From Paenibacillus urinalis (GTDB taxonomy: Bacteria > Bacillota > Bacilli > Paenibacillales > Paenibacillaceae): 64,000 nt of DNA. The notes under the pieces were generated by a model, which did not search any database, was not told the DNA's origin, and worked only from the letters and a program-made list of their open reading frames with translations. Positions 18,445 through 62,479 of the stretch are shown piece after piece. The first letter of the stretch is position 1; every line of letters starts with the position of its first letter. The position numbers were made by a program, and so were the translations under genes. The stretch lies in contig NZ_CP118108.1 of the NCBI RefSeq assembly GCF_028747985.1, positions 1,369,501 to 1,433,500 of the forward strand, given 5' to 3'.

Positions 18445-19800
18445 ATGGCAAAAAAAGTAACGTTTGATTACAGTAAAGCACTTGAATTTGTTGGGCAGCA
18501 TGAGGTGGATTATTTCGCAGAGCCGATTCGTCTTGCACATGAGCAGCTTCATAACGGAACAGGTGCAGGGTCCGATTATCTTGGCTGGATTGATCTGCCG
18601 ACCAATTATGATAAAGAGGAATTCTCTCGTATTCAAAAAGCAGCTGCGAAGATCCAAAGCGACTCTGATGTGCTGATCGTCATCGGAATCGGCGGTTCTT
18701 ACCTGGGAGCACGCGCTGCGATTGAAATGCTGTCTCATTCCTTCTATAATGAGCTGCCAAAAGAGAAGCGCAAAACTCCTGAGATTTATTTCGCAGGTAA
18801 CAATATCAGCTCTACATATGTCAACCATCTGCTTGAGCTTATCGAAGGCAAAGACTTCTCCGTGAACGTCATTTCCAAATCCGGTACGACAACGGAACCG
18901 GCGATCGCTTTCCGTATCTTCCGTGCAGCGCTTGAGAAGAAATACGGCAAGGAAGAAGCTCGCAAACGGATCTATGCAACGACAGACCAAGCGAAGGGTG
19001 CACTCAAGAAGCTGGCGACTGAGGAAGGCTATGAGTCCTTTATCATTCCAGACGATGTAGGCGGCCGTTACTCGGTTCTTACTGCGGTAGGACTTCTTCC
19101 GATTGCTACAGCGGGTATTAATATTGAAGAAATGATGCAAGGTGCTGCTGACGCTTCGAAAGAGTACAGCAACCCGAACGTAGCCGAGAACCAAAGCTAT
19201 CAATATGCTGCTGTTCGTAATGCGCTGTATCGTAAAGGCAAAGGCACAGAGATCCTCGTAAACTACGAGCCGTCCCTGCATTTCGTATCCGAGTGGTGGA
19301 AGCAGCTGTACGGCGAGAGTGAAGGAAAGGATTTCAAAGGAATCTATCCTGCTTCTGTTGACTTCTCTACAGATCTTCACTCCATGGGTCAATTCATTCA
19401 GGAAGGAAGCCGCAACATCTTCGAAACAGTTATCCAAGTCGAAGAGGTTCCGAGCCATATTACGATTGAATCCGATCCGGACGATCTGGATGGTCTGAAC
19501 TTCCTGGAAGGCAAAACGATGGACTTCGTTAACAAAAAAGCGTTCCAAGGAACACTTCTTGCGCATACAGACGGACAAGTTCCGAATCTTATCGTAAATA
19601 TTCCAGATATGACTCCATATTCCTTCGGATATCTGGTATACTTCTTTGAAAAAGCTTGCGGCATCAGCGGTTACCTGCTTGGGGTTAATCCATTTGACCA
19701 GCCAGGGGTTGAAGCTTACAAGAAGAACATGTTTGCTCTGCTTGGCAAGCCTGGCTACGAAGAAGAAAAAGCGAAGCTTGAAGCAAGACTATCTGAATAA
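18445..19800 (+). CDS. pgi: Glucose-6-phosphate isomerase
   Basis: 451 residues from ATG 18445 ([13 protein letters not shown]), with ribosome site AGGGAGGT. The frame is open from 18328, but the extra 39 codons have no ribosome site and do not resemble the family. It interconverts glucose-6-P and fructose-6-P in glycolysis. Visible features: [18 protein letters not shown], the sugar-phosphate binding [14 protein letters not shown] (about 150-163), the [18 protein letters not shown] signature and the C-terminal [11 protein letters not shown] region. Length matches Bacillus Pgi. Its codon bias is strong, like that of tkt, which lies immediately upstream but is separated by a terminator. Confidence 0.97.
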
Positions 19801-19841
19801 TCAAGGGTATCTCAGACATATATGTAAATGACTTATTTAAC

Positions 19842-19882
19842 TAAGAAAGCAGTTCACCCGCACTTGGATGAGCTGCTTTCTT
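19842..19882. terminator. Hairpin after pgi
   Basis: TAAGAAAGCAG (19842-19852) pairs with CTGCTTTCTTA (19872-19882). There is no long T-run, so termination is likely but not certain. Confidence 0.6.
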
Positions 19883-19923
19883 AAAAATATAAATCTAGTT
19901 GTGCTAGCAGAAAGGTAGTAGAA

Positions 19924-20559
19924 ATGATGATTGAGCGTTACCGTACGGTTCGAATGTCGGGAGATAAGGAAATTGTCATCAAGAAATCGCGGTTCATTGG
20001 CCACATCAAGCCGGTAGAGACCGAGGAGGAAGCAGTTTCTTTTATCGAAGAGATCAAGAAAAAGCATTGGAATGCAACGCATAACTGTTCAGCTTATATG
20101 ATCGGTGAGCGTGATGAAATCCAGAAGCAGTCCGATGACGGCGAACCAAGCGGAACCGCAGGTAAACCTATATTGGAGGTGATCAGGAATCAGGGACTGA
20201 AGAATGTAGCCATCGTCGTGACTCGATATTTTGGCGGAATCATGCTTGGTGCAGGCGGCCTTATTCGCGCATATACAGACGGTGCGGTTGCTGCCATTGA
20301 AGCCGGTGAAGCCATTACGAAGGTGCTGCATCGTGAAGTGTTTGTAGAGATTGATTACACGTGGCTTGGCAAAGTGGAGAATGAGCTGAGGGGCAGAGAG
20401 ACTCGGATGGGTGAAACAACATTTACTGACAAAGTCAGGCTGACATGTCTTCCGGTCGATAGTGAAGCAGAGCGCTTTATAGATTTTGTGATCGATCTAA
20501 CACAAGGTCAATCTGTAATCACGGAGGGACAGCAGCTTTATTTTATTGAAGGGGAATAA
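19924..20559 (+). CDS. YigZ/IMPACT family protein (YvyE-like)
   Basis: 211 residues. It shows the UPF0029 signature: SRFIGHIKPVETEEEA, HNCSAYMIG, then DDGEPSGTAGKPILEVI and VTRYFGGIMLGAGGLIRAY. The IMPACT-type N-terminal domain (about 1-125) is joined to a ferredoxin-like C-terminal domain (DUF1949, about 138-195). The family is linked to translation regulation, but the bacterial function is not established. It lies three bases upstream of the TetR gene, so the two are probably co-transcribed. Confidence 0.88.
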   Translation: MMIERYRTVRMSGDKEIVIKKSRFIGHIKPVETEEEAVSFIEEIKKKHWNATHNCSAYMIGERDEIQKQSDDGEPSGTAGKPILEVIRNQGLKNVAIVVTRYFGGIMLGAGGLIRAYTDGAVAAIEAGEAITKVLHREVFVEIDYTWLGKVENELRGRETRMGETTFTDKVRLTCLPVDSEAERFIDFVIDLTQGQSVITEGQQLYFIEGE

Positions 20560-20562
20560 GAT

Positions 20563-21144
20563 ATGGCTAGAAGAGCAGTGGAACAGGAGTTGTCAAGGGA
20601 ACGTATATTGGAGGCGGCGAGGCATCTGTTCGTAACGAAGGGCTATCGTTCAATTTCCATGCGTAGTATAGGACAGCATCTAGGGTACAGTCATGGTTCT
20701 TTATATTATCACTTCAAGGAAAAAGCAGAACTGTTTTACGCGATTGTGATTGAGGATTTTAATCATCTGGGGCAGATGCTGCTGCAAGCGATGGCTAGGG
20801 AATCAAGTGAAGGATTGTCTAAGCCTGAGCATGTCATGATGGAATTTATCCGGTTTGGACTGGAGAATCCTTATCAGTACGAAATCATGTTTATGATTCG
20901 GGATGAAGAGCTGCTGGCCTATTGCCGTGCAGAACAGAACCGATGTTATGAGTTATTCGCAACCATTATCCGCTATCATATGAATGATCAGGAATATACG
21001 CCGGAACAAAAGCTGAAATTACCTCACAGTATGTTTTTATCTATTCACGGTTTCATTTCTTATTATATTCAAGACCGTTCTCCATTCGAGGACGTAAGAC
21101 AAGAAGCCATTTCCCACGTTAAGATTATGTGTAACAGAATTTAG
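20563..21144 (+). CDS. TetR/AcrR family transcriptional regulator
   Basis: 193 residues. The N-terminal TetR helix-turn-helix covers about 12-58 (ERILEAARHLFVTKGYRSISMRSIGQHLGYSHGSLYYHFKEKAELF). The C-terminal ligand-binding domain is helical, with WHG-domain-like character (FGLENPYQYEIMFM). Its target and ligand are unknown. It begins three bases after the YigZ gene; the ribosome site is GAAGGGG. There is no transporter or enzyme next to it on the same transcript, so the regulated genes may lie elsewhere or be the ABC ATPase downstream. Confidence 0.9.
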   Translation: MARRAVEQELSRERILEAARHLFVTKGYRSISMRSIGQHLGYSHGSLYYHFKEKAELFYAIVIEDFNHLGQMLLQAMARESSEGLSKPEHVMMEFIRFGLENPYQYEIMFMIRDEELLAYCRAEQNRCYELFATIIRYHMNDQEYTPEQKLKLPHSMFLSIHGFISYYIQDRSPFEDVRQEAISHVKIMCNRI

Positions 21145-21294
21145 TTATGTAGTTGTCATAGTCATCACCACTGTGGTCAAGGCAGCCGTTATGCAATCTA
21201 TATTATACAGCTGAACCGCATCCATCTCTGTGAAATAAGTCAATAAATGAAAGATCAGGGCCTTTTCACGCTTACATACTTCAGAGCGGTGAAA

Positions 21295-21320
21295 TGTCAT
21301 AACGTTGCATTGTCATAACG
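21295..21320 (+). repeat. Two direct copies of TGTCATAACG
   Basis: The copies lie at 21295-21304 and 21311-21320, a 16-base period, about 50 bases before the candidate promoter of the CysA-type gene. They may be an operator for the neighbouring TetR regulator or another factor. The rest of the spacer from 21145 to 21454 shows no gene. Confidence 0.4.
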
Positions 21321-21369
21321 GTAAAAGGCGAAAGTGCTTGTCTTATCCATTTCTAACAACTTTAAAAGA

Positions 21370-21399
21370 TTGACGTAATCCCCCTATTTTTGGTAAAGT
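21370..21399 (+). promoter_or_regulatory. Candidate promoter of the CysA-type ATPase gene
   Basis: TTGACG (21370-21375), an 18-base spacer and TAAAGT (21394-21399). Confidence 0.5.
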
Positions 21400-21454
21400 A
21401 TCAAATAAAGTAATTCCTAGCGCTTTTCTAGGGAATATATTGGGGGATGGGGAA

Positions 21455-22519
21455 ATGCACGTTGAAGTCCGTGGGTTGAACAAACATTTTGGGAATTTTC
21501 ATGCGGTTAAGGATGTTTCCTTTGATATTGAAAAAGGTCATCTCATCGGTTTGCTTGGACCGAGTGGTGGAGGTAAAACTTCGATCTTGCGCATATTAGC
21601 CGGTCTTGAGCATCCGGACGCAGGTGAAATCCGTTTCCATGGACAGCTCGTTAATGACCTTCCTCCACAGGAACGGGGAATCGGCTTTGTTTTTCAGAAC
21701 TATGCGCTATTTAAACATATGACCGTCTTTGAGAATATTGCGTTTGGACTTAAGGTCAAGAAGCAATCGAAGGCACAGATCCATGACCGGGTGATGGAGC
21801 TTGTAGAGCTTACAGGCCTAAGCGGCTTTGAGAAGCGTTATCCTCATCAATTATCCGGGGGACAGAGACAGCGTGTTGCATTTGCAAGAGCGCTGGCACC
21901 TGAGCCGCAGCTGCTGCTGCTTGACGAGCCATTTGCGGCGATTGATGCGAAGATTAGACAGGAGCTGCGTTCATGGCTGCGTGAATTGATTGAGCGGGTT
22001 GGAATTACATCAATCTTCGTTACCCATGACCAGGATGAGGCTATAGAAGTAGCGGATGAGATCATGATAATTAATCAAGGGGCTTTGGAGCAGAAGGGAA
22101 CGCCTTGGGACATTTACAAGCGCCCGGAAACACCGTTTGTCGCTTCGTTTATCGGAGAGTCCACTATTGTCGAGCATGCCCGTGAGCTGAAGGGGTTTGA
22201 TATCGAGGCTGTTTCCAATGATGCGAAGGCGCTCATTCGTCCTGAATATATTGAGGTAGGCAAAGAGAATGAGTTCACACTTCTGTCTGCTACGGAGAAA
22301 GGCGTTGTAAGAGCACTTCATTTCCGTGGGAGCGAGTGGCTTGTCGAAGTCACGGTAGGCAAGCATCGACTGATTACCTATCGTTCTCTTGAGAAAGAGA
22401 CGCTATCCGTTGGTCAGGAGGTTCGTGTGCTGGTTCATCGGGCATATCTGTTTAATGATCAGGACAACTGGATGGTGGAAAATAGTTTGAAGCGTGATCC
22501 AATGCCAATAACGATCTAG
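21455..22519 (+). CDS. Sulfate/molybdate-type ABC transporter ATPase (CysA-like), unlinked to permeases
   Basis: 354 residues from ATG 21455 after a GGGGATGGGG tract; the frame is open from TTG 21440. Walker A is GPSGGGKTS (35-43), the Q-loop FQNYALFKHMTV follows near 80, the signature LSGGQ is at 133-137 and Walker B LLLLDEP is at about 153-159. A C-terminal TOBE-like regulatory domain begins near residue 240. The ALFKHMTVFENIAFGL and FASFIGE-like stretches are typical of CysA. No membrane or sulfate-binding subunit lies nearby, so it must pair with permeases encoded elsewhere or serve several systems. Substrate is inferred from similarity only. Confidence 0.8.
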   Translation: MHVEVRGLNKHFGNFHAVKDVSFDIEKGHLIGLLGPSGGGKTSILRILAGLEHPDAGEIRFHGQLVNDLPPQERGIGFVFQNYALFKHMTVFENIAFGLKVKKQSKAQIHDRVMELVELTGLSGFEKRYPHQLSGGQRQRVAFARALAPEPQLLLLDEPFAAIDAKIRQELRSWLRELIERVGITSIFVTHDQDEAIEVADEIMIINQGALEQKGTPWDIYKRPETPFVASFIGESTIVEHARELKGFDIEAVSNDAKALIRPEYIEVGKENEFTLLSATEKGVVRALHFRGSEWLVEVTVGKHRLITYRSLEKETLSVGQEVRVLVHRAYLFNDQDNWMVENSLKRDPMPITI

Positions 22520-22564
22520 GTATCACTCTGCTAGGATATCAATCAGATAGCAAGCTGTCTTTTT

Positions 22565-22599
22565 ACCCTGACGTATGATGCGTACAGGGTTTTGTTTTG
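22565..22599 (+). terminator. Intrinsic terminator after the CysA-type gene
   Basis: ACCCTG (22565-22570) pairs with CAGGGT (22585-22590), followed by TTTGTTTTG. Confidence 0.75.
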
Positions 22600-22744
22600 T
22601 TCAATCGGCGATATGGATCATGGCTTTAAATCATGGCTCAAGCTTTATAAGAAGCCTTCGGTCATTTTATAATAGTATCGTAATTCAGTAATCACTAATA
22701 AATGTTCAGCATCATTTACTACATAATTCAGGGGTGTATCAACT

Positions 22745-23191
22745 ATGACAGAACAAGTTAAATTGTCTCAATATTCCGCTATTCTATTGGAGAATGCGCG
22801 TCATTACGGCGTTACGGACGAAGATGTACTCACTGCAATCCGCACCGGGGATCTGGCGGCTTTTAGCCATGCAGAACGTGAACATTATACTTACGAGGCT
22901 TTTCTCTCGTATGCGAAGGAGCATGGGGAGGAGCTTGAGCGGGCTGTTCAGGAAGGGTATCGCATCACATTCAATACCAATAATGGACTTAAAAATTGGA
23001 TTGCGATTACGTTTGATCTGAAGCCGGGAATTGATTTTAACGCAGCAGAGGGCCTTGTAGACGGTCTTATCCTTACTGGAGAGCAGGCAGAGAAGCTTAG
23101 AAAATCTCTTGCGTCCAATTGGCATATAGCAGATGAGATAGATACGGCAGACGGTCATAAAGAGCTGACATTAAGGCTCCGGGGAATGTGA
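22745..23191 (+). CDS. Unrecognised 148-residue soluble protein
   Basis: I do not recognise a family. The protein is acidic, with no signal peptide or membrane helix. The N-terminal half is predicted helical (LENARHYGVTDEDVLTAIRTGDLAAF, then YAKEHGEELERAVQEGYRI). The C-terminal half has mixed strands and helices (NWIAITFDLKPGIDFN, EQAEKLRKSLASNWHI, HKELTLRLRG). Codon use matches its neighbours and a ribosome site AGGGGTG precedes ATG 22745, so it is probably real. It lies between the CysA-type gene, which ends in a terminator, and the MBL hydrolase gene 44 bases downstream. Confidence 0.7.
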   Translation: MTEQVKLSQYSAILLENARHYGVTDEDVLTAIRTGDLAAFSHAEREHYTYEAFLSYAKEHGEELERAVQEGYRITFNTNNGLKNWIAITFDLKPGIDFNAAEGLVDGLILTGEQAEKLRKSLASNWHIADEIDTADGHKELTLRLRGM

Positions 23192-23235
23192 TGAGATACA
23201 GAGCTTATGCACCGGCAGAAAGGACATGACAGTAT

Positions 23236-24015
23236 ATGACGATAACAGATAAACTAACGTTCCTCGGCACAGGAGATGCGATGGGAGTTCCAAGGCTATA
23301 CTGTGAGTGTGAGGTATGTATGGAGGCAAGGACAACGGGTATCAACCGCAGATACCGTTCCTCAGTGCGGGTGCATGGATCAGATGGAGAGTTCATGATT
23401 GACGGAGGTCCGGATTTCGTGCATCAGATGGAACAGCTGGGCAAACGCCAGCTGCGAACGATGCTGGTTACGCATCCTCACTTTGATCATATCGGCGGAC
23501 TGCCGGAGTGGGCAGATGCCTGCAGGTGGCTCGGGGAAAAAGGGGAGCTCTACGCGCCGCAGGAGGTCATTGAAACAATACAGGTACAGTTTCCTTGGCT
23601 GTCCAGGCATATTAAAATGCAGCCCTGTGATTCAGGCGTTGAGCTCGCCGGATATCAGATCCGGACCTGGAAGGTCAACCATGGAAAGAACGGTTACTCC
23701 TACGCATACCGCCTGGAGAAGAATGGTTACCGCTGGGTTTATTGCTCGGATTCCATCAATCTGAATGAACAGGAAAGGCAGCAGCTCTATCATCTGGATC
23801 TGTTAGTGCTTGGGACAAGCTTTTATCATGAGCTGGCAGAGTTCCACACTCGCTCTGTATATGACATGCTGGAAGCACAGGAGCTGCTTCGACTGGTTAA
23901 GCCGAGGCAAACCATTTTTACTCATATGTCTCATGATGTGGATCTCCGGCAGAAGTATGATCTTATGCCGGAAATTACACTTGCCGAGACAGGAATGACA
24001 CATATTTTATCGTGA
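23236..24015 (+). CDS. MBL-fold metallohydrolase (PhnP-like)
   Basis: 259 residues. The start FLGTGDAMGVPRLYCECEVC resembles PhnP-type phosphodiesterases with a cysteine pair. The metal-binding HxHxDH motif is HPHFDH (80-85). Further ligands appear in KVNHGKNG and YCSDSI, and in FTHMSHDVD near the C-terminus. The family hydrolyses cyclic phosphodiesters or related esters. There is no phn operon here, so the substrate is open. It probably shares a transcript with the preceding unknown gene. It faces the MocR gene, which converges on it from the right with 48 bases between stops. Confidence 0.85.
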   Translation: MTITDKLTFLGTGDAMGVPRLYCECEVCMEARTTGINRRYRSSVRVHGSDGEFMIDGGPDFVHQMEQLGKRQLRTMLVTHPHFDHIGGLPEWADACRWLGEKGELYAPQEVIETIQVQFPWLSRHIKMQPCDSGVELAGYQIRTWKVNHGKNGYSYAYRLEKNGYRWVYCSDSINLNEQERQQLYHLDLLVLGTSFYHELAEFHTRSVYDMLEAQELLRLVKPRQTIFTHMSHDVDLRQKYDLMPEITLAETGMTHILS

Positions 24016-24063
24016 AGAAGCTTGATCCAGCCACCGCGCACGATTCGGTATAGAAACCTGCTG

Positions 24064-25614
24064 CTAGTGAAGATTCGCGTACGCGATCAGCAGTCGCTCC
24101 ATTCCCTCTTCAATCTGTTTCTCGCTCGTATAACAATAGCTGAGCCGGATATAAGCTTCTGAGCCTTGCGGAAGTGGATCGCAGAAGGGTCCGGGAACAA
24201 AGGCAACCGATCGTTCAAGGCTCTTCTCAAGCAGGGCGATCGCATCTACATGGGCAGGAAGCTGAACCCACAGGTCGAGCCCCCCTTCCGGGCTGACCCA
24301 CTGCCAGTCGGCCGCTGTCAGCATTTGCTCCATCTTCTCTTTTCGCAAGCTAAGTGCAATGCGCAGCTTCTCCATATGGGTCTGCATTCGGGAGGAAGTG
24401 AAGTAATGCTGGAAGATTTTTTGGCCGAGCAGCGGAGAACCGCCGTCTGTCAGTGATTTAAGAGTCAACGCTTCCTTCATAAGCCATGGCTTGCACAATA
24501 CGAAGGCAATGCGCAGACCGGGTGCTACGTACTTGCTGAAGCTGCGAATGTACATGACGACCCCTTCCGTATCATAGCTGTAGATCGGCGGGGGAGGCTC
24601 ATCTGCGAAATACATATCATACGTCGTATCATCTTCTGCAATAATGAACTGGTACTGTTCAGCAAGCTCAACCAGCAATTTACGCTTCTCCTGTGGGAGA
24701 ACATATCCCGTCGGGTTATGATAAGTCGGGTTTACATACATAAGTCGCGGGCGTGAATCCACAATGGTGTGCTCAAGCTGCTCCATATCATATCCGTCTG
24801 GCTGCATCTCTACAGTGACGATGCGTGCTCCAGCCTGCCGAAAAATATCAATGGCGGTACTGTAAGTAGGCCGTTCAACGAGCACAACATCGCTTGGCTT
24901 AATCAGCATTCGTGCTGCCAGATCGATGGCCTGCGTAGCCCCGGACGTGACAAGAATATCCTCTGGTGACAAGGACATATGGTGCCGTGCGTTAAAGTAT
25001 TCAGCCATGACCTCACGGAGCTGGAAGTCTCCTTGAACCGTGGAATAGGTGCCAAGCAGCTTGGGATACATATCGAACACCTGCTTGACGTACTCCGACA
25101 TATACGTATTGGGAAGCAAAGAGGGGTCAATCAGTGCCTTGGAGAACTGGTACTGCACGTCCTGCTGATGCAGCGCTGATAACACATGAGTCCGCCGGGT
25201 CAGCGACAGAAAAGGCAGCGAGTCCTCTTGTGTCAGCTGGCTTGCGGCTGAGTGCAGGGGCTGTGAAGTAAGTGTCTGCACTTGATTCCTCCTTTGATGT
25301 AAATGGAGTATATCTGCCGAATCTATAGCATTCGTAAACACCTTATCCGGTGGCGAGGTCAATTTCACTGCAGGGCGCGGGCACACATAATAACCTGATC
25401 GATCTTTAGCATATATAAAATGGTCCTTAACGAGCTGCTGATACGACTTAAATACGGTCAGTCGATGCACGCCAAACTGCTCTGCGAGCGAGCGCACGGA
25501 AGGAAGCCGGTCATTCGGAGCATAATCTCCCCGCTCAATTCTCAGATGAACATAGTCGTATACTTGCTGTGATAAAGGTTCCTTTGTGAGAAACTCCGAG
25601 CGTTTATTTTTCAT
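24064..25614 (-). CDS. MocR/PdxR-type regulator (GntR HTH fused to aminotransferase)
   Basis: 516 residues from ATG 25614, with AGGTGG five bases upstream; ATG 25632 in the same frame has no such site. A GntR winged helix lies near 10-80 (LSQQVYDYVHLRIERGDYAPNDRLPSVRSLAEQFGVHR has the pattern). The rest is a fold-type I aminotransferase domain with VTSGATQAIDLAARML, YVNPTYHNPTGYVL and the PLP lysine in RSFSKYVAPGLRIAF. Such regulators bind PLP or an aminated ligand and usually control a divergent gene, here the EamA exporter. Direct repeats lie in the shared intergenic region. Confidence 0.92.
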   Translation of the reverse strand: MKNKRSEFLTKEPLSQQVYDYVHLRIERGDYAPNDRLPSVRSLAEQFGVHRLTVFKSYQQLVKDHFIYAKDRSGYYVCPRPAVKLTSPPDKVFTNAIDSADILHLHQRRNQVQTLTSQPLHSAASQLTQEDSLPFLSLTRRTHVLSALHQQDVQYQFSKALIDPSLLPNTYMSEYVKQVFDMYPKLLGTYSTVQGDFQLREVMAEYFNARHHMSLSPEDILVTSGATQAIDLAARMLIKPSDVVLVERPTYSTAIDIFRQAGARIVTVEMQPDGYDMEQLEHTIVDSRPRLMYVNPTYHNPTGYVLPQEKRKLLVELAEQYQFIIAEDDTTYDMYFADEPPPPIYSYDTEGVVMYIRSFSKYVAPGLRIAFVLCKPWLMKEALTLKSLTDGGSPLLGQKIFQHYFTSSRMQTHMEKLRIALSLRKEKMEQMLTAADWQWVSPEGGLDLWVQLPAHVDAIALLEKSLERSVAFVPGPFCDPLPQGSEAYIRLSYCYTSEKQIEEGMERLLIAYANLH

Positions 25615-25671
25615 CTTATCCACCTCATCCACTCATGCCTTTCTTCCATTGTACGATATTATGACCATCAA

Positions 25672-25701
25672 CTGTTCTATTCTGTACCTTCTGTTCTATT
25701 C
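25672..25701. promoter_or_regulatory. Direct-repeat operator between MocR and exporter genes
   Basis: Two exact copies of CTGTTCTATTC lie at 25672-25682 and 25691-25701, spaced 19 bases start to start. The second ends ten bases before a TACAAT -10 box (25711-25716) of the exporter gene. That box has no good -35, as expected for an activated promoter. Paired direct repeats next to the -10 are typical of MocR regulators. Confidence 0.7.
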
Positions 25702-25745
25702 CACTTCGATTACAATGTGGCAATAGACGAGGAGGCTGGAGTAGA

Positions 25746-26687
25746 ATGCGATTATTAATTGCTTACATGAGCATGTGTTTAATTTTTGGTACGACCTTTC
25801 TGGCGATCAAAATAGGAAATGATGCAGGGGTTCCGCCGTTTTTTGCGGCAGGGGTGAGATTCTGTCTCGCAGGCGCACTCTTGTTCATATGGTGTCTATG
25901 GAGACGAAAAACAAGCATCAAGCTGCTGCTGCGTAAAGAAGTGATGATTATTGGCAGCTGTTTAACCTTTATGACCTTTGCAGGGCTATACTATGGAGAA
26001 CAATATATCAGTTCAGGCGTGGCTGCCGTATTGTCTGCTACCGGACCGATCATGATCATCGGAATTCAGACATGGGTTCTCAAGAAGAAAGCTTCAGCGC
26101 TCTCTTTGCTCGGCTGTTTAACGGCATTTGTCGGCGTTATTCTTATCCTGGTTCCCGAACTGACGATTCAGGCGGGGGGAATGTGGCTGGCAGGTGCCTG
26201 CGCAGTGCTGGTTGGCGAAGTGTTCTATGCGTCAGGCTCTGTATATTCAGGAGCCACGAGGTCCAGACTGAGCGGATATTCGTCCCTTGCAGTAAACGGC
26301 GCACAAATGCTGTATGGCGGACTCATGCTGCTGATGATCTCCTTCATCACAGAACAGCCTGATCCGGATGTGCTATTGTCTTCTGGGGCAGCGGGCTCAG
26401 TCCTCTATCTGACGATATTTGGCTCTATGATTGGACACAGTCTATTTTATTTCCTGGTCACCAAGACGGGACCGCTGTTTCCTTCGACCTGGCTCTATAT
26501 ATCTCCTATGATTGCCCTTGGTGTCGGGATGTTATTTTATGGAGAGCATGTAACCCTATTAACGGCAATCGGGTCGATCATCATCATTGGCGGCCTGATT
26601 ATGGCGAATTGGCATACACTAAGAGAGTGGATTCAGCTTAGAAGCCAGCGGAAAAGTGAAGCGGACAGAAGCGGTGTGGCAACATAA
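25746..26687 (+). CDS. EamA/DMT-superfamily exporter
   Basis: 313 residues with ten predicted membrane helices in two EamA repeats (about 5-135 and 150-292). It opens with LIAYMSMCLIFGTTFLAIKIGNDAGVPPF, the usual start of this family. Members export amino acids, metabolites or drugs; the substrate here cannot be told from sequence. It starts at ATG 25746 after GAGGAGG and is divergent from the MocR regulator, which probably activates it. The C-terminal tail is Arg/Lys/Ser-rich and cytoplasmic. Confidence 0.9.
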   Translation: MRLLIAYMSMCLIFGTTFLAIKIGNDAGVPPFFAAGVRFCLAGALLFIWCLWRRKTSIKLLLRKEVMIIGSCLTFMTFAGLYYGEQYISSGVAAVLSATGPIMIIGIQTWVLKKKASALSLLGCLTAFVGVILILVPELTIQAGGMWLAGACAVLVGEVFYASGSVYSGATRSRLSGYSSLAVNGAQMLYGGLMLLMISFITEQPDPDVLLSSGAAGSVLYLTIFGSMIGHSLFYFLVTKTGPLFPSTWLYISPMIALGVGMLFYGEHVTLLTAIGSIIIIGGLIMANWHTLREWIQLRSQRKSEADRSGVAT

Positions 26688-26721
26688 ATACGAATGACAA
26701 TTAGGGACATCTGAAAAATGT

Positions 26722-26743
26722 GCTGCGCATACACGTATGCAGC
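26722..26743 (+). terminator. Short hairpin after the exporter gene
   Basis: GCTGCGCATAC is followed by GTATGCAGC, forming a stable hairpin with one bulge. No T-run follows, so this is a weak terminator candidate. Confidence 0.4.
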
Positions 26744-26860
26744 CTAATGTACCGACCAGGCACTGATTTTTATAAATAAGTTATTTACGTATCTTTCTGG
26801 CGGTCTCAGACGTCTTCACAGTATAAGTACTTATAAGGACTAAACAAAGGGGGGCCCCGA

Positions 26861-27673
26861 ATGATGGCCTTTGTCAGATCCGAACCCTACAGGATGTATC
26901 TGAAGTGTGCAGATGGTGACGACCATACACAGACTTCGGAATTATCGAGAAGCATGATGTTATCCCTGTATAAATACTGCCTGTCTCTAACCGGATCAAA
27001 AGAGGATGCTGAGGATTTGTGCCAGGAGGTTTATGTCAAAATATTGCCGCATGCCGCGGATTTGAGTAAAAGTGTAGGTTTTTCGATGGAGGGTTATCTG
27101 ATCCGTTCAGCCCGTAATGTGTGGATTGATGGCTTGCGTAAGGAAGCAAGGCGGAGAGAGCTGCTGGGTGAGATGCAGGAGCAGGAGCAGTACGTCAGCT
27201 CTCATCATGAGCTTGGCGATGGCCTGGCTGTAGAAGAGGCTTTTCAGGTGCTCCTGACACAGCTGACGGACTGGCAGCGGACAATATACATTCTCTGTGA
27301 GCTATTCAGCTATAAGGCGAGAGAGACCGCTGATTTGCTCGATTCTACGGAAGGAGCGGTTAAGGCTGCACTTCGCCGGGCAAGAGAAGTCCTCGCAGAA
27401 GAGAGACAGCGGCAGCTAGAAGCGGATGAACCTGGCGTCTTGATGAGCCCCGTGTCGGAAGAGGATGCAGAGCGTCTAAGAGATTACCTGGGTGCTTTTC
27501 GTGCAGGTGACACTGAGCGTATTATACAGCTGGGACTTGGCGGCGCAGCAGATGTGATGATGGTGACGAGTCAAGTACTTGGCTTCAAGATGCACAGCGG
27601 CACAGCTCCTCAGCTTACAAATGCATGGTATGACAGCCTGCAGCAGATCTCAAGGATAGAGATGGTGGCATAG
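26861..27673 (+). CDS. ECF-type RNA polymerase sigma factor with C-terminal extension
   Basis: 270 residues. Region 2 is seen in MMLSLYKYCLSLTGSKEDAEDLCQEVYVKI and GYLIRSARNVWIDGLRKEARR (about 29-105). Region 4 follows at about 125-185 (LLTQLTDWQRTIYILCELFSYKARETADLL, then TEGAVKAALRRAREVL). About 80 extra residues follow (190-270), containing a DYLGAFRAGDTERIIQL segment that recalls the SnoaL-like tail of longer ECF factors, but shorter. No anti-sigma gene is adjacent; the next gene, 19 bases downstream, is clpP. Ribosome site AGGGGGG precedes ATG 26861. Confidence 0.82.
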   Translation: MMAFVRSEPYRMYLKCADGDDHTQTSELSRSMMLSLYKYCLSLTGSKEDAEDLCQEVYVKILPHAADLSKSVGFSMEGYLIRSARNVWIDGLRKEARRRELLGEMQEQEQYVSSHHELGDGLAVEEAFQVLLTQLTDWQRTIYILCELFSYKARETADLLDSTEGAVKAALRRAREVLAEERQRQLEADEPGVLMSPVSEEDAERLRDYLGAFRAGDTERIIQLGLGGAADVMMVTSQVLGFKMHSGTAPQLTNAWYDSLQQISRIEMVA

Positions 27674-27692
27674 AAAAAGGAGAGAAGCGTAA

Positions 27693-28271
27693 ATGCCAAC
27701 CATTCCTTATGTAGTGGAGCAAACGAGCCGGGGGGAGCGCAGCTACGATATTTACTCCAGGCTCCTAAAGGACCGGATTATTATGATCTCGGGTGAGATT
27801 GAAGATCAAATGGCGAATCTGATTGTCGCCCAGCTGCTATTCTTGACAGCAGAAGATCCGAAGAAGGACATACAGCTCTATATCAACAGCCCTGGTGGCT
27901 CCGTAACTGCAGGATTCTCCATCTACGACACGATGAAATTTATTGAACCTGATGTATCGACCATATGCACAGGGATGGCGGCAAGCTTTGGCGCAATGCT
28001 GCTAACCGCAGGAACCAAGGGGAAGCGCTTCGCTTTGCCGAACAGTGAGATCATGATTCACCAGCCGCATGGCGGCAGTCGAGGTCAGGCCTCTGACATT
28101 CGGATTCAAGCCGATCGAATTCTCAGGCATCGGGAGCTGCTTAACCGGATTCTAGCGGAGTCCACAGGACAGCCGATCGAGCGCATTGAGAAGGATACTG
28201 ATCGTGATCATTTTATGACAGCAGAAGAAGCTGTAGCATACGGTTTGGTGGATAAGGTAATTAATAGATAA
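27693..28271 (+). CDS. clpP: ATP-dependent Clp protease proteolytic subunit
   Basis: 192 residues, normal length. This serine peptidase forms the two-ring proteolytic chamber of Clp proteases. The catalytic triad is at canonical positions: Ser98 in GMAASFGA, His123 in MIHQPHGG and Asp172 in DRDHFM. The N-terminal [17 protein letters not shown] and handle-region helix are intact. It lies 19 bases after the sigma factor gene with its own AAAGGAGAG site, and the two probably form one unit. It may be a second ClpP paralogue rather than the main housekeeping copy; that depends on the rest of the genome. A hairpin terminator follows. Confidence 0.95.
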
Positions 28272-28307
28272 ACCAAACTATAGAGTGATGTATTGGAAAA
28301 TAAAAAT

Positions 28308-28364
28308 ACCCGGATGCCATACTGCATAGTACAGGACTATGCTTGTAAGCAGCCGGGTTATTTG
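28308..28364. terminator. Hairpin terminator between clpP and the HAD gene
   Basis: An outer ACCCGG/CCGGGT stem encloses an inner GCATAGT/ACTATGC hairpin. AT-rich flanks on both sides fit use by both convergent transcripts. Confidence 0.65.
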
Positions 28365-28378
28365 TTGTCTATATAGAT

Positions 28379-29179
28379 CTAAGCCTCTAGAATGAACTTC
28401 TCAATGACATGCTTCACGCCGTCTTCATTGTTGCTCAGCGTAACATAGCCTGCAATTTCTTTCAGTGCAGGAATGGCATTCCCCATCGCTACACCAAGAC
28501 CCGCCGCTTCAAGCATCTCATGATCGTTCCAGGAATCGCCTACCGCAATGGTATCCTTAAGATCAACGTTAAAATGATCCGCAAGGAAAGTCAGCGCATG
28601 TCCCTTGGTTCCTTCATGATGCATGATTTCAAGAAAATGTGGCTTGGACTTGGTAATATGCACTTCAGGACCGAGCAGTTCGCGCAGATCAACAGCCACC
28701 TTGTCCAAATAATCAGGATCATCAATGATCAGCAGCTTAGGGGCTGGCTGTTCAATCATTTTTACAAAATCAGCTTCAATGTAGTATGGTGTTTTGTTCA
28801 GTTTGCAGTAATCAACCAGCTTCTCGTTCTCTTCACGGGAATACAGCTTGTCGTCAATATAAGTCTGCAGGTGCAGATTGTGCTCCAGGCAGTACTCATA
28901 GAGCTTACGAGCGGCTTCCATTGGAACATAGCGCTCGTACAGTACTTTTTCGTCCATCAGATTCTTAATTAGTGCTCCCTGGTACGTAATGATCGGTACA
29001 TTAAGTCCAGTCTGACGAGCAATCGCTTGTGCAGAAGCGTAAGCGCGACCTGTCGCGAGCGTAACCACGACATCCTTGGCCACAGCAGCCTCAAGTGCTT
29101 TTTGTGTGGGATTCGTAACTTCCTTCTCGTCATTAATGAGTGTGTCATCGATATCGATGGCAATCAGCTTGTAAGTCAT
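28379..29179 (-). CDS. Cof-type HAD phosphatase
   Basis: 266 residues. Motif I is DIDDT (Asp9, Asp11), motif II is LATGR (about 41-45), and motif IV is GDSWNDHEML near residue 219. The cap domain between them is of the Cof/type IIB kind. These enzymes dephosphorylate sugar phosphates, flavin precursors or PLP; the substrate is undefined. It starts at ATG 29179 after GAGGAGAG, 44 bases downstream of the lipoate ligase gene on the same strand, so the two may be co-transcribed. Confidence 0.92.
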   Translation of the reverse strand: MTYKLIAIDIDDTLINDEKEVTNPTQKALEAAVAKDVVVTLATGRAYASAQAIARQTGLNVPIITYQGALIKNLMDEKVLYERYVPMEAARKLYEYCLEHNLHLQTYIDDKLYSREENEKLVDYCKLNKTPYYIEADFVKMIEQPAPKLLIIDDPDYLDKVAVDLRELLGPEVHITKSKPHFLEIMHHEGTKGHALTFLADHFNVDLKDTIAVGDSWNDHEMLEAAGLGVAMGNAIPALKEIAGYVTLSNNEDGVKHVIEKFILEA

Positions 29180-29223
29180 GGCTTCTCTCTCCTCAGTTCT
29201 ATCTATTATTTAGTGGGGCAGTT

Positions 29224-30225
29224 CTACTCCTCTAGAAATACCAGACCGATGAAATCATCGAATTCCAGGTTGCCGAAGTAATGCTTAATATCTGTATCCT
29301 TAAGTGCGGTACGTACTTCTTGTTCTTCATAACGCTTGCCGCGGAGAAGATTCTCGATATCAGCTACATCGCCTACCCCGAAGAAATCTCCGTAGATCTT
29401 GATGTCCTCAATACGGCCTTCCTTAATATTCATACGAAGATCGATGATGCCGACCGGGAACTTCTTGGAATGCTTCACATTGCTCTCGGGTGACAAGCCA
29501 TAGTTCCAATCCCAATTCTGGTAACGTTCCTTCGAAATTTCGTGGATCTTCTCCCAGTCCTGCTCGGTCAGCTTGTACTCTGGAACTTCATTTGCCTCCA
29601 TGCCAAAAATATGTCGAAGCAGCTCCTCGCGGAATTCCACAATCGTCATCTCTCGATCCATCAGGGAGCTGATGTTAGCTACACGGCTGCGAACAGACTT
29701 GGTGCTCTTGGATTTGAATTTCTCTGGATTGACCTTGAGGGAAGCGGCAACGTTCTCCAGGTTAAGATCAAACATCAGAGTGCCGTGGCTGAACATGCGG
29801 CCGCGTGTGGCAAATTGTGCATTGCCGGATATTTTTTGCTCGCCGACTTGAAGATCGTTACGTCCTGTCAGCTCTGCGTTCACGCCAAGGCTGTGCAGCG
29901 CCTCAACCACGGGCTGAGTGAATTTGCGGAAGTTATGGAACGAGTTGCCGTCATCCTTGGTGATGAAGCTGAAGTTCAGGTTACCGAGGTCGTGATACAC
30001 CGCTCCGCCGCCGGACAGTCTTCTGACGACCTGTACGCCATGCTCCTGCACATATTCCTGATTAATCTCTTCAATGGTGTTCTGATGCTTGCCGATGATG
30101 ATGGATGGCGCATTAATGTAGAACAGAAGATAGCTCTCATCCAGGGATAAATGCTTAAGGGCATATTCCTCGATGGCGAGATTGATGCGTGGGTCTGTAA
30201 TCCCTTGGTTGTCAATAAACAGCAT
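29224..30225 (-). CDS. lplJ: Lipoate-protein ligase
   Basis: 333 residues. It activates free lipoate with ATP and attaches it to lysines of E2 and GcvH proteins. The LplA/B catalytic domain (about 1-240) shows RRLSGGGAVYHDLGNLNFSF (around 70-89), IGKHQNT and the lysine-bearing GEQKISGNAQ. A C-terminal accessory domain follows (about 250-333, IEDIKIYGDFFGVGDVADIE), as in LplJ/LplA. It starts at ATG 30225 after TTGGAGGAA. The symbol follows the Bacillus gene; assignment as ligase rather than octanoyltransferase rests on the accessory domain. Confidence 0.92.
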   Translation of the reverse strand: MLFIDNQGITDPRINLAIEEYALKHLSLDESYLLFYINAPSIIIGKHQNTIEEINQEYVQEHGVQVVRRLSGGGAVYHDLGNLNFSFITKDDGNSFHNFRKFTQPVVEALHSLGVNAELTGRNDLQVGEQKISGNAQFATRGRMFSHGTLMFDLNLENVAASLKVNPEKFKSKSTKSVRSRVANISSLMDREMTIVEFREELLRHIFGMEANEVPEYKLTEQDWEKIHEISKERYQNWDWNYGLSPESNVKHSKKFPVGIIDLRMNIKEGRIEDIKIYGDFFGVGDVADIENLLRGKRYEEQEVRTALKDTDIKHYFGNLEFDDFIGLVFLEE

Positions 30226-30385
30226 GGTCTATTCCTCCAATGTATATAGTTCAAATATGTAGGCAAGGACAGGCCTGTAAGCCTGAAGCTTGGTGTCTTG
30301 AAACACTCCATCCCTATTGTAAACGAATTGGGTGTGCGACACAAAAGGAATTGCCGTTGACGGGTGATTTTTGTAGCTTCATAAT

Positions 30386-30574
30386 GGAAAAGATACGCGG
30401 ACATAGTCGCGGATATTTTGCATTAAATTGGAAACGTTACGCGGACAAGATTTGCGGGCATGGTCGCGGATAGTTTGCATTATATTGGATACGTTACGCG
30501 GACAAGTTCGCCGATTGTTTGCATCAAATCGGAAACGTTACGCAGATAAGAGCCGCTGAGCATTTGCATTAAAC
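30386..30574 (+). repeat. Four imperfect tandem repeats upstream of cobD
   Basis: Copies at 30386-30429, 30430-30486, 30487-30530 and 30531-30574 are 44, 57, 44 and 44 bases long. Each begins GGAAACGTTACGCGGACA or a close variant and ends TTTGCATTAAATT or similar. They contain stops in all frames. The 404-base spacer (30226-30629) otherwise holds no gene and no riboswitch motif. Confidence 0.85.
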
Positions 30575-30629
30575 GCGTACAATTCTGCGCGATTACAGAT
30601 AACGCATGAGAAGAAAGGAAGGAACACCT

Positions 30630-31718
30630 GTGATAGAGGTTTATGGACATGGCGGTGACGTAGAGACCGCTGCAGTGAAATACGGACGGTCACCAGCGGA
30701 CTTCCTCGACTACAGTGCCAATATCAATCCGCTCGGCCCGCCTCCTGCGGTCACACGAGCACTCACGGAAGGAATGCATCACATCCTTCGTTATCCCGAT
30801 CCGGGACACCGCAGTCTAAAGCACAAGCTTGCAGCCAAGCTGAAGTTGTCGGAAGACCAGCTTCTGATCGGCAACGGGGCTGCGGAGTGTATGGCGCTTA
30901 TTATTCAAGCATTTACACCTGCAGCTGTAGGCACCATTGAACCGGGATTCTCGGAGTATCGTCAGCTGGCAGCACAGTACGGAAGCCGGACAGAGTACAT
31001 ATATGGGAATAAAGAGCTTAATTATCGGGCCGAGCTGTCAGCAATCTTCGAGCTTATCGATAGGGTAGAGCTGCTATTTATCGGTCAGCCAAACAATCCG
31101 AACGGGGTACAATACGCCCGAAGCGAGCTGGAAGCGATTGCTGCTCATGCTAGAGACCGGGACGTCAAGGTTGTAATTGACGAAGCTTTTATCGATTTCA
31201 TACCCGAGCATGAGCGTGAGACACTGACGGACTCTCTGGACCCGTATCCGAATGTCATTGTCATTCGTTCCATGACGAAATTTTATGCAATCCCGGGACT
31301 TCGCCTTGGGTACGCGGTAGCCCAGCCTGATCTGATATCGGCGATGTCGAGCAAGCAGGTAACCTGGAGTGTAAACGGACTAGCTCTGCTGGCAGGTGAG
31401 GCTTGTCTTATGGAAAACAGCGCATATGAAGAGCAGACCCAGGCTTGCATTAAGGTGGAGCGAAACCGCTTGATGTCCGAATTGGCTTCCCTTGGCTTTC
31501 AGGTCTATCCGGGTGTGGCCAATTACTTGCTGCTGGAGACACCGGAAGGCTGGAACGCCGAGTCTCTGCAAGAGGCGATGGGAAAGCAGGGAATTCTTAT
31601 TCGAAATTGTGCCATGTATACAGGACTAGGCGACAAATCCGTTCGGATCGCGGTGAAGGGGCAGCAGGACAATAGCCGGTTTCTTGAAGTGCTGCGATTC
31701 ATATTGGGGGAGCAATAG
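30630..31718 (+). CDS. cobD: L-threonine-O-3-phosphate decarboxylase
   Basis: 362 residues from GTG 30630, preceded by AAGGAAGG; ATG 30606 in frame lacks a ribosome site. It is a PLP enzyme of the HisC-like fold that makes (R)-1-amino-2-propanol phosphate, the linker of cobalamin. The N-terminus IEVYGHGGD, then DFLDYSANINPLGPP, is the CobD hallmark. LLIGNGAAE, GQPNNPNGV and the PLP-lysine segment RSMTKFYAIPGLRLGY follow. It begins an operon with cbiZ (three bases apart), cbiB and a phosphatase. The name follows Salmonella usage, where CobD is the decarboxylase. Confidence 0.93.
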   Translation: MIEVYGHGGDVETAAVKYGRSPADFLDYSANINPLGPPPAVTRALTEGMHHILRYPDPGHRSLKHKLAAKLKLSEDQLLIGNGAAECMALIIQAFTPAAVGTIEPGFSEYRQLAAQYGSRTEYIYGNKELNYRAELSAIFELIDRVELLFIGQPNNPNGVQYARSELEAIAAHARDRDVKVVIDEAFIDFIPEHERETLTDSLDPYPNVIVIRSMTKFYAIPGLRLGYAVAQPDLISAMSSKQVTWSVNGLALLAGEACLMENSAYEEQTQACIKVERNRLMSELASLGFQVYPGVANYLLLETPEGWNAESLQEAMGKQGILIRNCAMYTGLGDKSVRIAVKGQQDNSRFLEVLRFILGEQ

Positions 31719-31721
31719 ATA

Positions 31722-32480
31722 ATGACAACACCTTTTTTGCACAAGTTCGCTTCTAACCAGGCTATTCCAGATATTTATTCCTCTACTCTCTGGCCTGGCC
31801 TCAAGCTAACGAAGTACGACAATGCGTATTTGCTTGTGGAATCACCTCAGACGGTTCAATCGCTGTCGAGTAGTGTTTACGGGGGAGGCATGAGCCGGAT
31901 TGATCGTGCAGTCAATATATATGTAGATAAGCATTTTACGTCTGATCATCCTGCAGCCGAGATCGAAGCACGTTTGATAAAGTGGAGGCTTCCTGCAGCT
32001 GGCACCGCCGGTCTGCTGACAGCAGTGAAGCTAGCACATGTTTCTGTTATAGAGGAAAGTACCGACCATGCCATCGTCTTCTGCTGCACGACAGCGGGAG
32101 CCGGCAATGCAGCCAGAGCGTCGTCTCCAAGGACTGTTTTTCCCGCAGCCTATTCTCCGGGCACGATCAATACGATGCTGTTTATTGCCGGTGAGCTGAC
32201 TTCCTATGCCATGGTCAATGCGCTGCAAACCGCAGTCGAAGCAAAGGCTTGCGCCCTGCAGGATCTCGGAGTGAGGGATGCCGAGAACGGAATGATCGCG
32301 ACGGGGACAACAACAGATGCCGTTGTTCTTGGTGTCAGCGGATTTAAACCGGATGGAAGCACGCCGGACAAAATTCATGCTTATGCAGGCACAGCTACAG
32401 AGCTTGGCTCCTGCATCGGACGACTCGTATATGCGACGGTTACCGAGAGTCTGCTGGCTGGAGAGGAGGCGGCAGGATGA
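31722..32480 (+). CDS. cbiZ: Adenosylcobinamide amidohydrolase
   Basis: 252 residues. CbiZ removes the aminopropanol tail from adenosylcobinamide to give adenosylcobyric acid, allowing salvage of imported cobinamides. Family features are SSSVYGGGMSRIDRAVNIYVD, the Gly/Ala-rich TAGLLTAVKLAHV, CTTAGAGNAARA, GTINTMLFIAG, TAVEAKACALQDLG and ATGTTTDAVVLGVSG. It has no membrane segment. Its position between cobD and cbiB (overlapping the latter by four bases) is consistent with remodelling, because CbiB then re-adds the linker. Confidence 0.9.
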   Translation: MTTPFLHKFASNQAIPDIYSSTLWPGLKLTKYDNAYLLVESPQTVQSLSSSVYGGGMSRIDRAVNIYVDKHFTSDHPAAEIEARLIKWRLPAAGTAGLLTAVKLAHVSVIEESTDHAIVFCCTTAGAGNAARASSPRTVFPAAYSPGTINTMLFIAGELTSYAMVNALQTAVEAKACALQDLGVRDAENGMIATGTTTDAVVLGVSGFKPDGSTPDKIHAYAGTATELGSCIGRLVYATVTESLLAGEEAAG

Positions 32481-33460
32481 CCCTGGCTCTCATTCTTCTC
32501 TGCGCTTATATTCTTGACCGGATCATCGGTGATCCGAGATGGATTCCCCATCCGGTGATTGGCATGGGCAAAGGGATATCACTACTTGAGAAATCGATCC
32601 GCTCCAAAGTGACTTCAAATAAGGGGTTACTGTTTGCAGGCTTTCTGTTTCCGATTGTCATCGTTGGCGGTTCTTTTCTCATCACCTGGGCGGTGCTCAA
32701 GCTGCTTGCGATCGTTCATCCTTATCTTGCCGTTGCCGCCGAGATCGTTCTGATTGCAACCACGATTGCAGCCAAAGGTCTGAAGGAGGCGGGAATGGAG
32801 GTATATAAGCATTTAAGAAACCGACAGCTCCCGGAAGCCAGGAGGTCACTTGGCATGATTGTAGGCCGGGACACGGACCATCTGGATGAACCGGAAATTG
32901 TTCGCGGAACGGTAGAGACGATTGCAGAGAATATTGTGGATGCCATTATATCTCCTCTATTCTATGCTCTGATCGGCGGTGCTCCTCTAGCGATGGCGTA
33001 TCGTGCAGTCAATACACTGGATTCGATGGTAGGGTACAAGAACGAGAAATATTTCTACCTTGGCAAAGCCTCCGCCCGGCTTGATGATGCAGCTAACTAT
33101 TTGCCTGCTCGTATTTCCGCACTGCTGCTGTTTGCTTCGGCTCGCATACTAGGGCTGCATGTCGAGAATAGCATTCGTACAGTGAAGGAGGATGCAAGCA
33201 AGCACCCTAGTCCAAACGGCGGATACCCTGAATCAGCAGTCGCAGGTGCTATCGGAATTCGGCTCGGGGGGTATAACATATATCACGGTGTGGAATCGTT
33301 TCGAGCTTATATGGGCAAGCCTTATCATACGCTTGAGGCTGCACATATCAAGACAAGCATTACAATGATGTTTGTGTCATCCAGTTTGTTTATCTTGATC
33401 CTCTGTGCTCTTCTATCTGTTCTCTCGATCTTCGGTATGGAATGGATGTGGTGGACATGA
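32477..33460 (+). CDS. cbiB: Adenosylcobinamide-phosphate synthase
   Basis: 327 residues with several membrane helices. It condenses cobyric acid with aminopropanol phosphate at the membrane. Conserved stretches are DRIIGDPRWIPHPVIGMGK, GRDTDHLDEPEIVRGTVETIAENIVDAIISPLFYAL, ALRAVNTLD-type AYRAVNTLDSMVGYKNEKY, and HPSPNGGYPESAVAGAIGIRLGG. The start ATG 32477 overlaps the cbiZ stop. The product of CobD feeds this step directly. Confidence 0.95.
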   Translation: MTLALILLCAYILDRIIGDPRWIPHPVIGMGKGISLLEKSIRSKVTSNKGLLFAGFLFPIVIVGGSFLITWAVLKLLAIVHPYLAVAAEIVLIATTIAAKGLKEAGMEVYKHLRNRQLPEARRSLGMIVGRDTDHLDEPEIVRGTVETIAENIVDAIISPLFYALIGGAPLAMAYRAVNTLDSMVGYKNEKYFYLGKASARLDDAANYLPARISALLLFASARILGLHVENSIRTVKEDASKHPSPNGGYPESAVAGAIGIRLGGYNIYHGVESFRAYMGKPYHTLEAAHIKTSITMMFVSSSLFILILCALLSVLSIFGMEWMWWT

Positions 33461-47364: not shown

Positions 47365-47397
47365 AAAAAAACAAGCTTTTTAAAGGCTTGTTTTTTT
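47365..47397. terminator. Bidirectional terminator after the SDR gene
   Basis: AAAACAAGC pairs with GCTTGTTTT, with A and T tracts on either side, between convergent genes. Confidence 0.8.
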
Positions 47398-57837: not shown

Positions 57838-58125
57838 ATGAGCGAAATATTGCAGGGAGCCAATGAATTCTACGTAGAGCAGAATGGCGAGAAGGCGGCG
57901 ACGATCGGATTTGAGCCAGGAAGTGAAGGCGGGGAGGGACCGGGCGTCATCATGATTACCCATACCTTCGTGTCAGAAGAGCTTCGGGGTGAAGGCGTGG
58001 GAGTTGACCTGGTGAAGCAAGTCGTCCAATATGCACGAGACAATGAGTTAAAGGTTGTCCCGATGTGTTCTTTTGCCAGCAGTGTGATGGATAAGCATAC
58101 AGAGTTGCAGGATGTGCTGGTTTAA
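57838..58125 (+). CDS. Small GNAT-like (YjdJ-type) N-acetyltransferase
   Basis: 95 residues from ATG 57838, with AGAGGAG upstream; the frame is open from 57793 through an inverted repeat. It matches the minimal GNAT_2/YjdJ type: NEFYVEQNGEKAATIGF, then VIMITHTFVSEELRGEGVGVDLVKQVVQYARDNELKVVPMCSFASSVM. The acetyl-CoA loop RGEGVG is intact. Function of this family is largely unknown. Monocistronic, with a terminator behind. Confidence 0.85.
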   Translation: MSEILQGANEFYVEQNGEKAATIGFEPGSEGGEGPGVIMITHTFVSEELRGEGVGVDLVKQVVQYARDNELKVVPMCSFASSVMDKHTELQDVLV

Positions 58126-61552: not shown

Positions 61553-62425
61553 TCATGTATCCATATCGACTGCCCGTTGGTATATAAAATCCTCTTCTGC
61601 ATTCTCGTCTATGACACCGGCATCCATATTGATGCCATAATAAATTTCGTCCATCTCTGTTTTGAGCTGTTCCGTAATTTCCTGTTGTTCCTCTGCACTC
61701 AGCTTGTCCTTCGTATAACCGAACAAATAGTTGTTGAGATCAAATTCTTTCAGTTTGCATTTGGTGTGAAAAATATGGTGCTGATACACGTTGATGTCAA
61801 TCATATCAAATTGCTGCTGAATACTGGATGGAATGTAGTTCTGAATGGAGCTGATGTCATGATCAATAAACAGCTTGTTCCCATCAATATCACGGGTAAA
61901 TCCGCGTACACGGTAATCGATCGTCATGATATCCGTATCAAACGAATGAATGAGATAATTCAGCGCCTTCAGCGGTGAAATCTCTCCACAAGTGGATACG
62001 TCAATATCAGCTCGGAAGGTACTGATTCCTTCATAGGGATGGAACTCCGGGTAGGTGTGAACCGTAATATGACTCTTGTCCAAATGCATCACCACATGAT
62101 CCGGAAGCGGACCAGGTGACTCTTCGAACGATTCTTCTTCAGCATCGCCTACTGGACCTTCCGAGACGAGTAGTGTTACGCTTGCCCCTTGAGGGATGTA
62201 GTCCTGCTTCGCCACATTAAGCACGTGCGCTCCAATAATATGGGATACATTCGTCAGTATCTGTGTCAAGCGGTCTGCATTATATTGTTCATCAATATAT
62301 TCGATGTAAGCTTCGCGTTCTTCCTTGGTCTTGGTTTAGCACACATCATACATATTGAAGCTGAGGGATTTGGTCAGATTGTTGAACCCGTGCAGCTCAA
62401 TGCGCTGTTCTGGTGTAAGTGCCAT
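61553..62425 (-). pseudogene. speD: S-adenosylmethionine decarboxylase (E. coli type), with in-frame stop codon
   Basis: The full-length gene would encode 290 residues from ATG 62425, nine bases after a good AGGAGG. Codon 30 (62338-62336) is TAA, just where E. coli SpeD has tyrosine (YDICYAKTAEERD; here [17 protein letters not shown]). Both sides of the stop align with SpeD in the same frame: [14 protein letters not shown] before it, [20 protein letters not shown] after it. The autocleavage site [13 protein letters not shown] and the later core ([23 protein letters not shown]) are intact. SpeD makes decarboxylated SAM for spermidine synthesis. A single base change or sequencing error would explain it; restart at an internal TTG (62269) would lose about 52 residues. 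No speE follows. Confidence 0.88.
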
Positions 62426-62461: not shown

Positions 62462-62479
62462 ATGTACAGTCCTGTACAT
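62462..62479. promoter_or_regulatory. 18-bp palindrome upstream of speD
   Basis: ATGTACAG-TC-CTGTACAT, perfect eight-base arms, 37 bases before the speD start. Position suits an operator. No regulator is linked nearby. A short CCCAG/CTGGG hairpin lies beside it (about 62486-62500). Confidence 0.5.

Follow-up and report, generated by a model that had tools for sequence, protein, structure and literature searches.

Does the nonsense codon within a speD gene of this Paenibacillus sequence record a genuine loss of S-adenosylmethionine decarboxylase, a wrong base, or a stop that the cell passes over? The stretch of DNA analysed, hereafter the window, is 64,000 nucleotides long, and the features under discussion are listed in Table 1. 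On the minus strand, an AGGAGG ribosome site precedes an ATG at 62425, 29 SpeD codons are read before the TAA, and 260 SpeD codons follow in the same frame to the end at 61553, as the first-pass annotation had described. We take the SpeD of E. coli to be class 1a and that of B. subtilis to be class 1b. In profile searches, the part of the gene beyond the stop scored 406.2 bits against TIGR03331 (cut-off 255.8; profile positions 24-259 of 259) and 50.8 bits against Pfam AdoMet_dc, and because of these matches the gene is called an E. coli-type speD that has been interrupted once. The translated remainder contains LDKSHITVH, around the Lys-Ser self-cleavage site of SpeD. The uninterrupted frame of class 1a SpeD was not found, codon 30 being TAA. 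Comparison with the product of the intact gene in the nearest genome examined, G001, gave 99.7% identity once this position was masked, and a chance open frame is therefore ruled out. A search for a solved structure of a relative on which to place the lost segment gave no match at E 0.001. The naming of class 1a and class 1b SpeD follows the available excerpts of PMC10407285.

Table 1. Positions in the window of the interrupted speD gene, its parts and its upstream elements
Feature	Position	Strand	Basis or remark
speD, class 1a (E. coli-type) S-adenosylmethionine decarboxylase proenzyme gene, interrupted	61553..62425	-	frame reading, profile matches
In-frame TAA, codon 30; sole codon differing from G001 speD	62336..62338	-	
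SpeD-like remainder, intact, 3' of the TAA; 260 codons and a terminal stop; TIGR03331 score 406 bits	61553..62335	-	
Longest open reading frame left; TTG at codon 53, 238 aa, lacking the first 52 residues	61553..62269	-	
Sigma-B-like promoter shape, CTTTAA-N14-GGGTAA	62483..62508	-	pattern match
Perfect inverted repeat, ATGTACAG-GA-CTGTACAT; 8-base arms, 2-base spacer	62462..62479	-	between promoter shape and start

Two sets of relatives indicate what codon 30 ordinarily encodes. The first, a speD alignment of 70 of the 71 speD-bearing genomes of the genus (G011 left out; 71 rows, with G001 present twice), has tyrosine at this position in 70/70 genomes. The second comprises the best 80 of at least 583 confirmed speD loci from a wider search, with tyrosine in 74 and phenylalanine in six. 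The tyrosine expected by the first-pass annotation is thus what most orthologues carry, the position is aromatic in all relatives examined, and a stop occurs there in none of the 70 genus genomes and none of the best 80 of at least 583 wider loci. The TAA is a true and private feature of the window sequence, from which its reality in the cell does not follow. Conserved recoding or readthrough is rejected, as the stop is missing from codon 30 in every relative examined. A start conserved downstream of the stop, named beforehand as a case that would undo the claim, is absent: all 71 alignment rows run from residue 1, and the relatives align from the same ATG. One wider locus, L079, whose record bears the title Neobacillus mesonae strain MER 107, encodes a SpeD 97% identical to the window Paenibacillus SpeD; that species label may be wrong.

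Of the 31-letter words sampled, 94% are common to G001 and the window. The G001 speD locus, in which codon 30 is open, matches that of the window over 893 bases (100% DNA identity after rounding). Alignment of the window with the matching 64 kb of G001 gave 212 substitutions, 205 of which fall in a 14.5 kb patch (18771-33278) that looks like a recombined segment. Ten open reading frames scanned in the patch encode PGI, UPF0029, TetR, ABC, GntR-aminotransferase, sigma factor, ClpP, LplA, aminotransferase and CobD products; the 270-aa sigma-factor frame at 26861-27673 (Sigma70 regions 2 and 4) is open in the window and occurs as two frames in G001. The remaining ~49.5 kb is near-clonal, with seven substitutions. 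Four of these stand side by side, along with two small indels, at the A and T runs of a hairpin resembling a terminator (47370-47391), which may reflect local sequence trouble in either genome. The isolated changes are a silent one at 46960, a missense at 58085 and the one at 62336 that makes the stop. Nonsense changes account for ~3.9% of possible single changes (6780/174897, in frames of 180 aa or more), and ~0.12 would therefore be expected among three substitutions; one in three is mildly unusual and not remarkable, the case having been picked for being a stop. Outside codon 30, speD is identical to the G001 gene. No decay has therefore set in yet, and decay of the remainder, tried as a clock, is uninformative.

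These observations make it probable that the class 1a speD has been disabled by a nonsense substitution, very recent and private to this strain, the loss being tolerable through other spermidine routes of the lineage. Translation would end at the TAA and yield a 29-residue peptide. Self-cleavage of the SpeD proenzyme at Lys-Ser forms its pyruvoyl cofactor; with no proenzyme made, there would be neither the cut nor the cofactor. Class 1b SpeD with SpeE, and a carboxyspermidine-type dehydrogenase/decarboxylase pair, would make the loss bearable. Both the absence of SpeD product and the presence of these backups in the window's own strain are what we infer.

A distinct possibility, though short of likely, is that the TAA arose as an error of base calling or assembly and that the strain's speD is intact. 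One wrong base per window is plausible, and the stop is the single speD difference from G001, one of just three isolated substitutions in ~49.5 kb, at a codon open in all relatives examined; the indels and adjacent substitutions at the A/T runs of 47370-47391 may also signal local sequence trouble, in either genome. However, real near-clonal divergence likewise gives few substitutions, of which some would be nonsense at the ~3.9% rate, and speD alone among frames of at least 100 aa outside the divergent patch differs in length from its G001 copy. From the sequence alone, a mutation of very recent date and a single wrong base look the same. The first-pass annotation had offered recent loss, error or bypass; the first two are strengthened by a stop that is private and a remainder that is undecayed, and bypass is weakened because no relative has the stop.

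A bypass through readthrough, a suppressor tRNA or a downstream restart, giving a working enzyme, is very unlikely. Such an event could draw on the intact frame 3' of the TAA and on in-frame starts at TTG 62269 and GTG 62224, the latter preceded by GGAG, but youth alone accounts for an intact remainder, and a stop found in no relative examined argues against conserved recoding. An enzyme restarted at the TTG or the GTG would lack 52 or 67 N-terminal residues, respectively, of which the first 40 are strongly alike among the aligned relatives, and inspection by eye revealed no ribosome site before the TTG; we infer that an enzyme begun at either start is unlikely to work. It is hardly credible that the truncated gene is kept for a new purpose, for example its 29-residue peptide or some new activity of a shortened enzyme, for although SpeD homologues with changed activity have been published, those in the available excerpts of PMC10407285 are mostly termed class 1b, and this speD carries one private substitution and is otherwise as in G001.

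The tolerance assumed in the preferred reading of a recent, real loss has its model in G001. This genome encodes a class 1b SpeD of 132 aa (137.1 bits to TIGR03330, cut-off 75.65), on a contig other than that of speD, and a SpeE, the spermidine synthase (381 bits in a profile search), whose gene is followed by a 289-aa frame that appears by eye to be an agmatinase. In addition, an NspC scores 491.6 bits, over its cut-off, in a profile search, and directly 5' of nspC lies a gene for a 418-aa dehydrogenase with carboxynorspermidine synthase as its best match; the product of this dehydrogenase is uncertain because 416.2 bits falls below the cut-off of 800. A spermidine importer is at most a borderline candidate in G001: of 145 matches to TIGR01187 (potA), one exceeds the cut-off, and barely so (356.7 against 355.6). 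Dependence on imported spermidine, suggested at first, is not needed, because G001 has the class 1b SpeD, SpeE and the carboxyspermidine-type pair; the alternatives to it, a second decarboxylase or carboxyspermidine genes, are both present in this sister genome.

Across 75 genomes of the genus, class 1a speD was detected by DNA in 71 and was absent from four, class 1b speD exceeded the TIGR03330 cut-off in 37, and NspC exceeded its cut-off in 72. None of the 75 is without an apparently open copy of one or another of these three genes, the partner genes of which were examined in G001 only. NspC is the only one of the three in G015, G064 and G065, class 1b in G075 and class 1a in G044. In G006, class 1a is open, class 1b contains stops and nspC is split into two frames, and this genome may have lost two routes or be poorly assembled. 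In the family, 107 of 167 sampled genomes have class 1a SpeD over the TIGR03331 cut-off and 60 are without it, so that loss, or original absence, of class 1a speD is common there. Broken copies are rare (G165 only, one of the 107), which was counted against real loss in the window.

The upstream region bears on what the gene may be for. The CTTTAA-N14-GGGTAA element resembles a sigma-B promoter in shape. The consensus for sigma-B promoters is GTTTAA, 12-15 bases and GGGWAW, from which the element departs by one mismatch in the first hexamer; the window lacks the GTTT form and carries the CTTTAA form. The pattern [GC]TTTAA-N12-15-GGGTA[AT] has a single match across the two strands of the 64-kb window, at 62508-62483. 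An upstream set of 93 distinct 150-base regions was drawn from the window, L002-L032 and L077-L156, with 40 short loci (L033-L072) omitted for too short a flank. GGGTA is present in 82/93 of these regions, against a mean of 14.8 in mononucleotide shuffles, and GTTT-N13-17-GGGTA in 50/93, against 0.5. The latter pattern precedes speD at 38 of 80 loci (L077-L156, the best 80 of at least 583) versus ~0.2 expected from the DNA surrounding them (18 matches in 1,055,524 strand-bases), where the patterns were picked after inspection of the data, the loci are mutually related and 42 of these best 80 of at least 583 are unmatched. The inverted repeat at 62462-62479 recurs as a pattern in 2/93 upstream regions, that of G001 (common to the window) and that of G033, and is ruled out as a general operator.

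G001 also has an RsbV-like/RsbW/sigma operon that holds a third sigma factor of the SigF/SigG group. Its RsbW scores 164.7 bits against NF003144 (cut-off 145) and 140.3 against TIGR01924 (cut-off 155.05), and for the third sigma factor the best specific match, Sigma_B, reaches 204.2 bits where the cut-off is 315; SigF (369.3 bits, cut-off 321.45) and SigG (498 bits, cut-off 457) are both recognized. A reasonable reading of these sequence patterns is that class 1a speD in Bacilli may be under stress control, and the promoter shape suggests spermidine supply under stress as the role of class 1a SpeD.

A broader proposal, which we offer tentatively, is that class 1a speD in Bacilli would be stress-controlled from a sigma-B-type promoter and operate in parallel with two other routes, class 1b SpeD and one of carboxyspermidine type, that members of the genus would retain one or more of these three, though any one can go, and that the window may show such a loss at its beginning. 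The available excerpts of the literature on speD with sigma B, and of that on Paenibacillus spermidine with speD, held nothing apparently to the point, and no literature joining a speD-type decarboxylase, Paenibacillus and carboxyspermidine was found; absence from print is not proven thereby for sigma B or for this last combination. Whether error or private nonsense allele, the stop by itself is of little weight, and the backup routes of the closest relative render loss of speD unremarkable. If the stop is real, the window strain and G001 would form a natural near-clonal pair that a single polyamine gene sets apart, and the contribution of class 1a SpeD amid other spermidine routes could be tested with it.

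In comparison with known systems, the window case resembles ordinary strain-level nonsense pseudogenes in its private single substitution, undecayed remainder and redundancy in the nearest genome, and differs from them in being known from an assembled sequence alone. Class 1b SpeD of the B. subtilis type (TIGR03330) is expected to catalyse the same reaction as the window's class 1a SpeD, but in G001 it is a small separate gene on another contig and not the gene seen in the window. Compared with class 1a SpeD as described by TIGR03331, the window gene is unlike in its frame, broken at codon 30, and alike in its profile score, its cleavage-site motif and its orthologues, found by DNA in 71/75 genus genomes.
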